From positions 1-55,118 of the forward strand of contig JAUYRZ010000119.1 in NCBI GenBank assembly GCA_030695565.1: DNA of 55,118 nt, read 5' to 3'. Source of the DNA: Archangium sp. GTDB lineage: Bacteria > Myxococcota > Myxococcia > Myxococcales > Myxococcaceae. Within the stretch, counting starts at the first letter, position 1. The number at the start of each line of letters is the position of its first letter. Below are positions 1 to 49,497 of the stretch, one piece after another. Below the pieces are notes generated by a model that was not told the origin of the DNA, made no database searches, and was given only the letters and a program-made list of their open reading frames with translations. A program made the translations under genes and the position numbers.

Positions 1-413
1 AGCAGCGAATCGAAGCGGGGCACCGACTGAAACGGATTTGTCTCCCTCTCCCCTGCGGGGGAGAGGGTCGGGGTCAGGGGGTGTGACTGTTGAGTGGCAA
101 TTGATTGCGGAGCGGTGGGGACAGCCCTCTCCCCAACCCTCTCCCCCGCAGGGGAGAGGGAGCCAGGCTGATCGATCACCGGCGGCGCGCGGAACATCTC
201 CGTCGCCATGCGCGCCAACAACACGTTCATCGACGCTGGATCTCCATCCGGCAACGTCGGCGCACCCGGCACCTTCATCACCGCGAACGCGAGCCCCGGC
301 GTCGGCACATGCTGCGCCGGCACGTTGAGCACGTTCGTCGGAGCAGGTGCATGACCCTGCACCGCGCTCACTTCACGCGGCACCGGCACGTCGTCAGGAG
401 AACGCTCAGGCAT
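1..413 (-). CDS. Family 2A encapsulin cargo: cysteine desulfurase, N-terminal targeting region (partial)
   Basis: The reading frame is open from an ATG at 413 to the window edge, giving 137 residues. The ATG overlaps the end of the shell gene by 8 bp (ATGCCTGA), so translation is probably coupled. The residues are a low-complexity Pro/Ala/Val-rich stretch with one helix-like segment (MNVLLARMATEMF, about residues 60-72). No folded domain is visible. In known family 2A systems the gene beside the shell is a SufS-like cysteine desulfurase whose long disordered N-terminus directs loading, and this stretch fits it. The PLP domain would lie left of position 1, so enzyme identity is inferred from position and N-terminal character. 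Residues about 84-97 and 112-124 are encoded by two copies of a dispersed palindromic repeat. It could instead be another disordered-N-terminus cargo. Confidence 0.72.
   Translation of the reverse strand, partial: MPERSPDDVPVPREVSAVQGHAPAPTNVLNVPAQHVPTPGLAFAVMKVPGAPTLPDGDPASMNVLLARMATEMFRAPPVIDQPGSLSPAGERVGERAVPTAPQSIATQQSHPLTPTLSPAGERETNPFQSVPRFDSL
41..80 (+). repeat. Dispersed palindromic repeat, copy A (inside coding sequence)
   Basis: The core is CCCTCTCCC, a short loop and GGGAGAGGG, followed by a TCGGGGT-type tail. This copy lies in frame in the cargo gene, on whose strand it reads LTPTLSPAGERE. It is inverted relative to the copy at 124-163. Confidence 0.85.
124..163 (-). repeat. Dispersed palindromic repeat, copy B (inside coding sequence)
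   Basis: This is a second copy of the repeat in opposite orientation to copy A, also in frame in the cargo gene (SLSPAGERVGERA). The two copies are separated by about 43 bases and could pair with each other as a larger inverted repeat. Confidence 0.85.
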
Positions 414-1311
414 ACTCGTAGTAGTTGTCGATGGTGACGCCCTCGAGCACACCGAGCGCGTCGTGGGTGAGCACGGCCACGGAGCAGTACAACGAGAGCA
501 GATACGAAGCGGCGCCCGCTTGGTTGATGCCCATCAAGCGCACCGACAGGCTGGGGCTCACTTCACCGGGAATGCCGGGCTGGAACAGACCGACCACGCC
601 CCGCTTGCGCTCACCGGCGCGAATCAGCAGCAGGTCGCTCTTGTTGCCCTTGATGGGCAACTTGTCGCAGGGCACCAGCGGCAACCCACGCCAGGTGAGG
701 AAGGGCGCGCCGAACATCGTGATGGTCGGCGGCGGTACCCCACGGCGGGTGCACTCCCGGCCGAACGCCGCGATGGTCTTGGGGTGACCGAGGAAGAACG
801 ACGGCTCTTTCCACACGGTCGAGATGAGCTCGTCGAGATCATCCGGCGTGGGCGGGCCACGGCGCGGCTTGATGCGCATCTCGGGGTCTGCGTTGTTGAG
901 CAGGCCGTACGCGCGGTTGTTGAGGATCTCGTTCTCCTGCTTCTCCTTGAGCTTCTCGACCGTGAGGCTCAGCTGCTCCTTGACCTGATCCATCGGGCTG
1001 CGGAACAGGTCGGAGATGCGCGTGTCGACTTCGATGGTGGTGGTGACCGAGGTGAGCACGTACTCGCGCGGCTGCGGGTCGTAGTCGCTGAAGGCGATGG
1101 GCAGCGGCTCCCCGGGGGCCGGGCTGCACTTCACGGCGAAGTCATCATCGAGCGCCTGGTTGACCCGGTAGACGCCGGCTTCGACGGGCGTCCACGGAAT
1201 CATCTGCGTCAGCCAACGCGGCGTGGCGCCCCGCCACAGCGGCGGCGTCTTGGTGGTGTTCGAGAGTTGGCGCGCGGCCTTCTCGGAAAGTACGCGGGGA
1301 GAGTCAGCCAT
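406..1311 (-). CDS. Family 2A encapsulin shell protein (SrpI-like)
   Basis: This 301-residue protein is predicted to self-assemble into an HK97-fold protein nanocompartment. Its length and motifs match the SrpI / mycobacterial 35-kDa major membrane protein group: an N-arm with AARQLSNTTKT, then RWLTQMIPWTPVEAGVYRVN, a PREYVLTSVTTTIEVDTR strand region, GPPTPDDLDELI, FFLGHPKTIAAFGRECTRRG, WRGLPLVPCDKLP, GVVGLFQPG and a C-terminal YYEYA tail. There is no cyclic-nucleotide-binding insertion, which separates family 2A from 2B. Family 2A shells are known to house cysteine desulfurase and to act in sulfur storage or metabolism. The next gene, overlapping by 8 bp, has the expected cargo N-terminus. 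The ATG at 1311 is preceded by GAGGA about a dozen bases upstream. A hybrid kinase gene ends 131 bp upstream on the same strand. Confidence 0.93.
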   Translation of the reverse strand: MADSPRVLSEKAARQLSNTTKTPPLWRGATPRWLTQMIPWTPVEAGVYRVNQALDDDFAVKCSPAPGEPLPIAFSDYDPQPREYVLTSVTTTIEVDTRISDLFRSPMDQVKEQLSLTVEKLKEKQENEILNNRAYGLLNNADPEMRIKPRRGPPTPDDLDELISTVWKEPSFFLGHPKTIAAFGRECTRRGVPPPTITMFGAPFLTWRGLPLVPCDKLPIKGNKSDLLLIRAGERKRGVVGLFQPGIPGEVSPSLSVRLMGINQAGAASYLLSLYCSVAVLTHDALGVLEGVTIDNYYEYA

Positions 1312-7780: not shown

Positions 7781-9415
7781 CTATTCCTGGAAGAGCTCGC
7801 AAGCCAAGACCGGCATGGTGGCACCGTCACGCCCTCCGACGAGCAGCACACGTCCGTCGGCGAGCAGCGTCGCGGAGTGGATGCCTCGCGCAGTGCCCAT
7901 CTGCGCGATGACCGCGACGGAGGACATCGCGGGGTCCAGGAGGCCCGCGCTGGAGGTTGCGATGCTTCCCGCGTAGCCGCCCGCGAACAGCACCTTCCCG
8001 CTGCGCAGACGGGTCTGCGTCGGCCAACTGCGCAGCAGCGTCGAAGTCACGGGACTGAACTGACCCGTCGCAGGATCGTAGAGCTCTGGCGCAACTTCGC
8101 CTCCACCGATGAGCACGGTGCCGCTCGCGAGCAGCGTCGCTTCCTGCTGCGTCAGGCGCAGGGTCGAGGGCATGCCCGTCGCAGTGAAGCGCCCAGTCGC
8201 CGGGTCGAAGAGCTCGGCGTTCACCAGCGTCGAGGTGCCGCCGGCGATCAGCACCTTGCCGTTGGGGAGCAGCGTCGCCGAGTGCCATTGGCGCGGCGAA
8301 CTCATGGCCATCACCCCAGACGTCGCCCCCGTGGTGGCGTTGTAGAGCTCGGCGGTGGCACCCGGGCCCAGCGTGCCGTCGCCACCGGTGAAGAGCACGA
8401 GGCCGGAAGGAAGGAGCGTCGCGGTGAACAGTTGCCGGGCGACCGTCATGGGCGGCATCGGCACGAAGCGGCCGGTGGCGGGCTCGTACTTCTCGACGGT
8501 GTTGGTGGGCACTGCAGTGCCGTCACGGCCGCCAGCCAGAAGGACCGTTCCGTCAGGCAGCAGGGTAGCGGTGTGGCTGTCGCGTGCGCTCGGGGTGAAC
8601 GCGAGCGGCGTGAAGACGCCCGTCGAAGGGTCGTACAGCTCGGCGCTCGCGACGGGGAGCGGGCCGTTCGCCCCGCCCACCACGAGCACGCGCCCGTCAT
8701 TGAGCAGCGTCGCCGTGTGCCACCACCGGGCAGTGGAGAGTGCGCCGGTCGGGCTGAACCCGCTCGGGCCCGCTGGGCAGCACCCCGTGATGCAGGCGAC
8801 GAACCCGGGCGTGCACCCCCGATCGACCCCGGCGTCCACAACGCCTGCGTCCACAACGCCTGCGTCCACAACGCCTGCGTCCACAACGCCTGCGTCCACA
8901 ACGCCTGCGTCCACAATGCCTGCGTCCACAATGCCTGCGTCCACAATGCCTGCGTCCACAATGCCTGCGTCCACAACGCCTGCGTCCACAACGCCTGCGT
9001 CCACAATGCCCGCGTCCTGCGAGGCCACGAGCTCCGACTCGGCGCGAAGGGCGACGAGCACGGTCCCGAAGTCAGAGGTCACCGTCAGGGCCGTGGCGGT
9101 GACCCCGGCCGTCGACTGCCCTTCGAAGGTCAGCTCGACCGACGCCAGTTCCCCGGGCTGGATTGTCTGCGGCTTCGCCCCCACCGAGAAGCCCAGCGCG
9201 CCCTGACCGAGCTCCATCGACTCGAGCTTGAGCGCCGAGCGACCGGCGTTCTCGAGCTCGATCGCGCGGGTGCGCCTCATGCCTGGCCCGACGACCCCGA
9301 AGTCGACATAGCTGGGCCGAACTCGGAGCTCACCGCTGGTGCGCTCGACGACGACGCCGCACTGACAGCCAGACAGAGAGGCCAGGAGGAGCACGAGAGT
9401 GGCGCGAGGCATCAT
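7781..9415 (-). CDS. Kelch-type beta-propeller lipoprotein with VDAG linker
   Basis: This is a 544-residue exported lipoprotein. The lipobox is LASLSGC (Cys17). Residues about 30-128 resemble an ASH/HYDIN-type immunoglobulin domain (VDFGVVGPG...IELENAGRSALKL). Residues 134-196 are a linker of twelve [IV]VDAG pentapeptides, encoded by 15-bp tandem repeats. After a short Cys pair the rest is a kelch propeller of about seven blades, each with HTATLLxDGxVLxxGG and AELYDPxTGxF. Such propellers usually mediate extracellular protein or glycan contacts; the partner is unknown. The linker repeat is a multiple of three, so copy-number changes would alter length but not frame. The gene stands alone, separated by 169 bp from the convergent rnhA. 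Confidence 0.88.
   Translation of the reverse strand: MMPRATLVLLLASLSGCQCGVVVERTSGELRVRPSYVDFGVVGPGMRRTRAIELENAGRSALKLESMELGQGALGFSVGAKPQTIQPGELASVELTFEGQSTAGVTATALTVTSDFGTVLVALRAESELVASQDAGIVDAGVVDAGVVDAGIVDAGIVDAGIVDAGIVDAGVVDAGVVDAGVVDAGVVDAGVVDAGVDRGCTPGFVACITGCCPAGPSGFSPTGALSTARWWHTATLLNDGRVLVVGGANGPLPVASAELYDPSTGVFTPLAFTPSARDSHTATLLPDGTVLLAGGRDGTAVPTNTVEKYEPATGRFVPMPPMTVARQLFTATLLPSGLVLFTGGDGTLGPGATAELYNATTGATSGVMAMSSPRQWHSATLLPNGKVLIAGGTSTLVNAELFDPATGRFTATGMPSTLRLTQQEATLLASGTVLIGGGEVAPELYDPATGQFSPVTSTLLRSWPTQTRLRSGKVLFAGGYAGSIATSSAGLLDPAMSSVAVIAQMGTARGIHSATLLADGRVLLVGGRDGATMPVLACELFQE
8828..9016. repeat. 15-bp in-frame tandem repeat encoding the VDAG linker
   Basis: About twelve near-identical 15-bp units (CCTGCGTCCACAACG and a variant with AATG) encode the linker of the kelch lipoprotein on the minus strand. 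The two variants occur in blocks, suggesting duplication by slippage or recombination. Confidence 0.9.
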
Positions 9416-48096: not shown

Positions 48097-49497
48097 GTGA
48101 CTCGCCTCGCCGGCCGCTATGAGCTCAAAGAGCGCCTCGCTGAAGGCGGCATGGCTGAGGTGTGGCTTGCCACCGCGCACGGCGACTCGGGCTTCACCCG
48201 TCGCGTGGCCATCAAGCAGCTGTTCCCGGTCGACGTCGACGGCGGCGCCTTCGCGCGCATGTTCCTCGACGAAGCTCGCATCACCAGCCGGCTGCACCAC
48301 GCGGCGATCGTCTCCATTCTCGACTTCGGGGTGGAAGAAGGCCGGCCTTTCCAGGTGCTGGAGCTGGTCGACGGCTTCGACATCTGGCGGCTGGTGAAGT
48401 GGGGCCGCGCGCAGGGCAAGCCGCTCTCCTCGGGGTTGGCGTTGCACGTCTGTGCGGTGGTCGGTCACGCGCTGCACTTCGCGCACGTGGCGGTGGATGA
48501 CTCCGGGCAGCCGCTGCGCATCGTGCATCGTGATGTGAGCCCGCAGAACGTGCTCATCTCGCGCAGCGGCGACGTGAAGTTGTCCGACTTCGGCATCGCG
48601 TTCTCCGAAGGCCGCGCAGAGCAGACGGTGGGCGGCATCGCGCGCGGAAAGCCCGCCTACATGGCCCCGGAGCAGGCGGTGCGCGGCGCGATGGATGGCC
48701 GCACCGATGTGTTCGGCCTGGGCTGCGTGCTGCACGCGTTGATCGCCGGTGAGAGCGCGCTGCGGGACGAGAACTCGTTGGTCGACTTGCTGGCGGGCGT
48801 GGAGCTGCCGCTCGATGCCTCCTTGCCTGAGCCGATTCGGGAGATCATCGCGCGCGCCACCCGCCGCAACAAGGCGGAGCGGTTCGAGAGCGCTGAAGAG
48901 ATGGCGCTCGCCTGCACGCAGCTGTTGCCCGCGTTCCTGACGGTCGACGCGCGAACCGCCTTGAGCACGTGGGTCAAAGACGTCGCGCCGCTGATCACCC
49001 CGAGCGTCGCCCCACTGCCGCCCACGCCGCTGCTCAAACCGAAACGGCGCCGCTGGCCCTGGCTCGTCGCCTTCGCGATGCTGGCCCCACTGGTCCCCCT
49101 CTCCCTGAAGGGAGAGGGTCGGGGTGAGGGCCTGGTTGCACGACTCCCAAGCCAACCCGAAGCGCCCAAACCAATCGAAGTCACCCCACCGCCCGAGCCG
49201 GTCGTGGAGACCCCGAAGCCAGAACCCAAACCCGAACCAAAGAAGAAGCTCCCCCGCGCCCCACCCGCGGCCCTCGAAACCGGCACCGGCATCTTCACCG
49301 TGGGCGGCGAGCTGCTCCTGCGAGGTGAACTCTTCGTCGACGGCGTCTCACGCGGCTTCGTGCCCGCCCGCCTGGAGCTCCCCGTGGGCCCGCACCGCAT
49401 CGAAGTGCGAGGCCGCGACGGGGTGAAACACGGCCCCCGCGAGATCCTGATCAACCGCCAACACACCCAGTCCTCCCCGCTCTCGTGGGAAGAGTGA
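48097..49497 (+). CDS. Membrane-anchored Ser/Thr protein kinase with C-terminal PEGA domain
   Basis: The 466-residue Hanks-type kinase starts at GTG 48097 (VTRLAGRYELKERLAEGG). The kinase domain covers about 1-275: glycine loop LAEGGMAEVW, Lys40 in VAIKQLF, catalytic Asp146 in VHRDVSPQNVL, DFG Asp164 and KPAYMAPEQAV. A basic KRRRWPWLVAFAMLAPLV membrane segment (about 317-333) is followed at once by LSLKGEGRGEG, encoded by an in-frame repeat (copy L). A Pro/Glu/Lys linker and a PEGA module (about 385-460; GELFVDGVSRGFVPARLELP) follow. It is probably an envelope sensor kinase. No cognate phosphatase is nearby. Confidence 0.92.
   Translation: MTRLAGRYELKERLAEGGMAEVWLATAHGDSGFTRRVAIKQLFPVDVDGGAFARMFLDEARITSRLHHAAIVSILDFGVEEGRPFQVLELVDGFDIWRLVKWGRAQGKPLSSGLALHVCAVVGHALHFAHVAVDDSGQPLRIVHRDVSPQNVLISRSGDVKLSDFGIAFSEGRAEQTVGGIARGKPAYMAPEQAVRGAMDGRTDVFGLGCVLHALIAGESALRDENSLVDLLAGVELPLDASLPEPIREIIARATRRNKAERFESAEEMALACTQLLPAFLTVDARTALSTWVKDVAPLITPSVAPLPPTPLLKPKRRRWPWLVAFAMLAPLVPLSLKGEGRGEGLVARLPSQPEAPKPIEVTPPPEPVVETPKPEPKPEPKKKLPRAPPAALETGTGIFTVGGELLLRGELFVDGVSRGFVPARLELPVGPHRIEVRGRDGVKHGPREILINRQHTQSSPLSWEE
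49095..49131 (+). repeat. Dispersed palindromic repeat, copy L (inside Ser/Thr kinase gene)
   Basis: CCCCCTCTCCCTGAAGGGAG then AGGGTCGGGGTGAGGGC in frame within the kinase gene, encoding residues 334-345 directly after the membrane segment. Confidence 0.88.

Follow-up and report, generated by a model that had tools for sequence, protein, structure and literature searches.

The DNA analysed here (the window) is a 55,118-base stretch that makes up the entire contig C83 of the source genome (G000; 8.5 Mb in 134 contigs). The left end of the window carries the following features.

406..1311, minus strand: family 2A encapsulin shell (SrpI-like), 301 aa, with NF041162, PF19307 and PDB matches
1..413, minus strand: first 137 codons of the cargo gene (cysteine desulfurase), truncated by the contig edge, alignable with the N-termini of relatives
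192..221, minus strand: conserved loading motif LLARMATEMF at residues 65-74, corresponding to the LARLANEFFS motif of the literature (PMC8049743)
119..165, minus strand: REP copy 1, with palindrome at 137-160 (CCCTCTCCCCCGCAGGGGAGAGGG on the plus strand) and tail at 119-136, encoding GSLSPAGERVGERA
83..118, minus strand: middle of the dimer spacer, encoding about VPTAPQSIATQQ
39..82, minus strand: second REP copy, in the opposite orientation to copy 1, with palindrome at 44-67 and tail at 68-82, encoding PLTPTLSPAGERE
9..35, minus strand: second conserved patch PFQSVPRFD (residues 127-135), in frame downstream of both repeats

The shell protein scored 463.8 bits against the family 2A model NF041162, exceeding the cut-off of 380, and 396.6 bits against the family 2B model NF041163, under the cut-off of 400 for that model. 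PF19307 was its sole Pfam domain (E 1.4e-95), with no cNMP domain in the Pfam search, and among PDB structures it matched SrpI 6x8m with an E of 2e-117 (6x8m and 8t6r both below 1e-116). The SrpI-type shell lacking a cyclic-nucleotide insertion that had been described in the initial annotation was thus confirmed. By shell protein, the nearest named relatives were Archangiaceae/Myxococcales assemblies.

The cargo reading frame starts at an ATG (413-411, minus strand) that overlaps the shell stop codon and stays open to the contig edge, and its N-terminus could be aligned with those of the related cargos L044 and L020. When G000 was searched with the model for family 2A cargo, one strong match was returned, C29:1-1122(+), the next best site scoring 283. 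The cargo part on C29 covered positions 250-623 of the 623 positions of NF041166 with about 789.5-789.7 bits relative to a cut-off of 800, the gene being split by the assembly. C29:1-1134(+) also matched PF00266 (E 3e-147) and TIGR01979 (sufS, above cut-off), identifying an aminotransferase class V/SufS-like domain. This PLP domain is open from the first base of C29, where the translation begins with DNAATTQKPQ and the N-terminal part of the frame is cut off, to a stop codon, and its translation contains the SGHK and SGHHC motifs. These results bear out the initial annotation, in which the gene overlapping the shell, with its Pro/Ala-rich N-terminus, was taken for a cysteine desulfurase cargo whose SufS-like PLP domain should be sought beyond position 1; the contrary outcome that it had allowed for, a cargo gene without a cysteine desulfurase domain, did not occur.

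The stop of the desulfurase on C29 is overlapped by a rhodanese-HTH-cupin gene. Judging from the single copy, the matching ends and the gene order, C83 and C29 would meet within one cargo gene. In the cargo of G002, which besides G000 is the sole genome of the genus found with the operon, 94 residues separate the PF patch from DNAATT, and by this comparison the assembly would lack about 85 residues at the C83/C29 junction, so that an intact cargo gene is something we infer. The operon is a normal family 2A operon, in the order encapsulin shell, cysteine desulfurase, rhodanese-HTH-cupin protein. The order of shell, cargo and then rhodanese gene was also found in G002, G030 and G119; synteny beyond the operon, sought as a means of dating the repeats, was not found in these three genomes, which matched in the operon only.

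Within the cargo frame, two inverted arms of 41 nt (39-79 and 125-165) are 90% complementary and encode GSLSPAGERVGERAV at residues 84-98 and PLTPTLSPAGERE at residues 112-124. Two inverted repeat copies had been placed at residues ~84-97 and 112-124 in the initial annotation; they are indeed read in frame, and its coordinates agree to within one or two residues. The repeat is built from a palindrome, CCCTCTCCC-loop-GGGAGAGGG, and a tail, present on one side only, that approximates TTGGGG(T/A)GAGGG. The exact core CCCTCTCCC-N2-9-GGGAGAGGG occurred 346 times in the genome and the reversed-pattern control 0 times, and therefore the repeat is not a chance pattern; as had been noticed, it is scattered well beyond the cargo gene. 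The copies that were read carried this tail or one close to it and no GTAG or CGTC tag, and no RAYT (Y1 transposase) was detected in G000 by a PF01797 search at E 1e-3. For these two reasons we call the repeat REP-type and leave it outside the GTAG/CGTC superfamilies.

The placement of the repeats was analysed in a 2.07 Mb sample of the genome, using a home-made gene caller and allowing two mismatches. Gene interiors, defined as positions >60 bp inside a gene (with the contig edge taken as the gene end for the cargo pair), made up 79% of bases but held only 19 of 178 REP copies, cargo pair included, which indicates that REPs are mainly extragenic and rare in genes. Pairs are a minority of the copies in the genome. 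All ten pairs that lay <800 nt apart in this sample and had both orientations readable were convergent, with tails inward, an outcome with a probability of about 1e-6 under random orientation. Seven pairs, including that of the cargo, were compact (42-69 nt between palindromes). In the cargo dimer the palindromes are 69 nt apart, tails counted; an intergenic dimer on C60 has the same spacing, and 130 bp of it align with the cargo dimer at 75%. Given this uniform tail-inward layout and the shared 69-nt spacing, the cargo most likely received one REP-type dimer of ~127 bp (42 codons) rather than two separate insertions.

REPs in other genes lie in proline/alanine/serine-rich stretches (flanks 0.28 vs 0.23 with the cargo left out; 8 of 2000 random sets were equally high) and encode near-identical peptides, e.g. 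SLSPAGERVGERA and TLSPAGERET, which separate domains of a multifunctional enzyme encoded on C85. We rejected the idea that the REP sequence is preadapted to coding by unusually open frames, the mean being 4.91 vs 4.83 for random 42-mers of the genome. The C85 gene (L217:10481-13435, i.e. C85:70481-73435 of G000) encodes an SDR/MaoC/SCP2 enzyme in which SCP2 stretches occur three times. Two SCP2-like units in it are nearly identical, and the first of these has one of the two REP-encoded peptides in the linker before it and the other in the linker after it, as though a duplicated domain had a REP pair around it. Besides compact dimers, G000 has convergent pairs of REPs with 284-604 nt between them at C41:9609-9940, C85:72315-72728, C27:26894-27330, C97:52538-53114, C107:94564-95163 and C27:20073-20730; the three of these that were inspected have unrelated DNA between the copies, namely a predicted small gene, a protein domain and short repeats. 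No pair with any other orientation was seen, and the wide pairs could be composite units. Elsewhere in the window, a predicted protein kinase gene (48097-49497) contains an in-frame REP at 49095-49118, just past the hydrophobic stretch that follows its kinase-like part, and at 8829-9023, within a predicted gene (7781-9280, minus strand), a 15-nt unit (CCTGCGTCCACAACG) is repeated in tandem about a dozen times.

In Synechococcus elongatus, the N-terminal domain of the desulfurase is needed for loading, and its first 100 residues also load, with lower efficiency (PMC8049743). From its composition and this published homologue, the N-terminal domain of the window cargo is taken as disordered. The PF..P..FD patch, or a close form of it, is present in most related myxobacterial cargos. 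Both LLARMATEMF and PFQSVPRFD, which flank the dimer, are intact and in frame, and the loading motif was found in the window and in L044, L045 and L022, as expected from the conserved segment pointed out in the initial annotation. The linker between the two patches is 52 aa long in the window and 42-198 aa in twelve relatives, 11 of which have a longer one, and the dimer supplies about 42 of the 52 residues. Because most of the linker is repeat-derived and its length is at the low end among relatives, the dimer replaces linker sequence rather than extending it.

The same cargo was then compared among relatives. Exact REP cores numbered 267 in G002, two in G010 and none in G030, G119 and G014, and the repeat was absent from the cargos of the REP-free or REP-poor relatives, L044 (G030), L045 (G119), L022 (G010) and L024 (G014). 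Among the other cargos whose N-termini were tested, the REP family was found in G002 only; palindromes in the cargo N-termini of the Acidobacteria loci L065, L066 and L068 were discarded as repeats, being single copy in their genomes. The G002 linker contains an inverted REP pair, again with tails inward, with a spacer of about 188 nt and peptides partly in other frames (VPSPSGRGVGVRE, SLTPNPLPEGEG). The expectation that close relatives would lack the repeat thus held for the four cargos named above but failed for the same-genus G002, and the alternative that the segments are conserved as protein and not as repeat DNA was contradicted, G002 having the repeat DNA with a different translation.

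In a tree of shell and desulfurase, G002 grouped with L044 and L045 and the window fell outside (UFBoot 92 for the concatenated proteins and 91 for the shell; the desulfurase alone gave no resolution). Since this tree places G002 with REP-free operons, separate insertions in G000 and G002 are favoured over one. If instead the pair were ancestral to both operons, its frames having drifted through small compensated indels, the identical order and tail-inward orientation in two genomes of one genus would follow directly, as would the position of copy 2, which precedes the shared PF motif by 8 and 13 nt in G000 and G002. However, copy 1 lies ~30 codons farther from the loading motif in G002 than in the window, the spacers (69 and ~188 nt) are dissimilar in sequence, the loop sequences differ, and a single gain would require a later clean loss; we regard common ancestry of the pair as unlikely. 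The G002 operon is nearer to that of another genus (G030, G119) than to that of the window, and its surroundings are not syntenic, which suggests that the operon may move between genomes.

At the average gene-interior rate, the chance of a copy in the G002 linker is about 0.3%, a figure that would be higher for a tolerant linker. The operon was found in two REP-rich genomes, and in both of them this linker holds a REP pair, more than would be predicted from simple tolerance. An RNA-level role was also considered. Folding energies were -93.7 kcal/mol (z -6.7) for the cargo mRNA segment with the dimer and -142.8 kcal/mol (z -6.4) for the G002 pair, which likewise folds as a single long hairpin; an Rfam search of the hairpin gave sub-threshold miRNA matches alone, which we took as chance. 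A hairpin of ~32 bp in the cargo coding sequence might slow or attenuate translation, lowering the cargo:shell ratio or making the ribosome pause once the loading motif has emerged, and the stability of both hairpins, together with the recurrence of the pair arrangement in G002 despite the small number of compact dimers, would suit such a role. Nevertheless, a hairpin of this kind comes with any REP dimer whatever its role, the operon is present without a dimer in relatives, and ribosomes are able to unwind hairpins, all of which makes this role improbable. Slightly more doubtful still is the broader idea that family 2A cargo linkers repeatedly capture REP dimers in REP-rich genomes as a hairpin or repeat-made spacer that is useful there, e.g. 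by pausing translation with the shell-binding motif exposed so that cargo meets shell co-translationally. The hairpin may also explain the assembly break near the dimer.

We consider it probable that a normal family 2A operon took up a single REP-type dimer, tails inward and in frame, between the two patches of the cargo loading domain, that the dimer serves there as tolerated linker filler with loading retained, and that C83 and C29 carry one gene. The insertion would have been neutral or nearly so, in a linker that would accept almost any proline/alanine/serine-rich sequence of variable length, and loading would continue via the upstream LLARMATEMF motif. It is because both conserved patches are intact that the repeats look like tolerated spacer filler. 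The initial annotation had instead proposed that they lengthen or alter the encapsulation signal, and they do sit within the domain needed for loading (PMC8049743); this proposal did not hold up against a linker at the short end of the family with known motif and second patch preserved, and the differing repeat peptides of G000 and G002 argue against any common repeat-encoded signal, making it very unlikely. The early end of the contig after the dimer, with the junction outside the assembly, would also fit an insertion that broke the cargo gene in a decaying operon, but the PF patch follows the dimer in the right frame and the PLP domain on C29 is uninterrupted with its motifs visible, and we therefore regard such decay as highly improbable.

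Read as tolerated filler, the dimer is a natural case of repeat DNA turned into spacer protein within a cargo-loading domain, apparently twice. Two short patches have been kept by evolution while the rest of the loading domain drifts, which could aid the design of cargo tags for family 2 encapsulins; the picture of compartment function is unchanged by the dimer.

The combination of desulfurase and rhodanese in family 2A operons is already well known (PMC8346489); more recent structural studies of how family 2A cargo is loaded were looked for and gave no match in the literature searched. With the SrpI-CyD operon of Synechococcus elongatus (PMC8049743; PMC8346489), the window operon shares the shell family, a SufS-like desulfurase cargo, an N-terminal extension with a LARLANEFFS-type motif and a rhodanese neighbour. 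In contrast to that system, related myxobacterial cargos have the PF..P..FD patch and mostly no AASPYYFLDG-like motif (pattern search), and the linker of the window cargo is filled by a REP dimer. REP singletons and dimers inside genes have been published for other bacteria, most dimers or groups encoding 20-30 residues, and the neutrality of such insertions in modular proteins has already been proposed (PMC3733652). The intragenic GTAG/CGTC REPs of that study resemble the repeat described here in the one-sided tail on a palindrome, the inverted pairs mostly 20-100 bp apart, the mostly intergenic location and the extra residues added in genes, but the window tail ends in TTGGGG(T/A)GAGGG, without either tag, and no RAYT was found in the genome. 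Rickettsia palindromic elements (RPE; discussed in PMC3733652) are likewise in-frame palindromic repeats inside protein genes, whereas the window repeat is unrelated to them in sequence and forms a GC-rich pair of REPs within a linker of low complexity.
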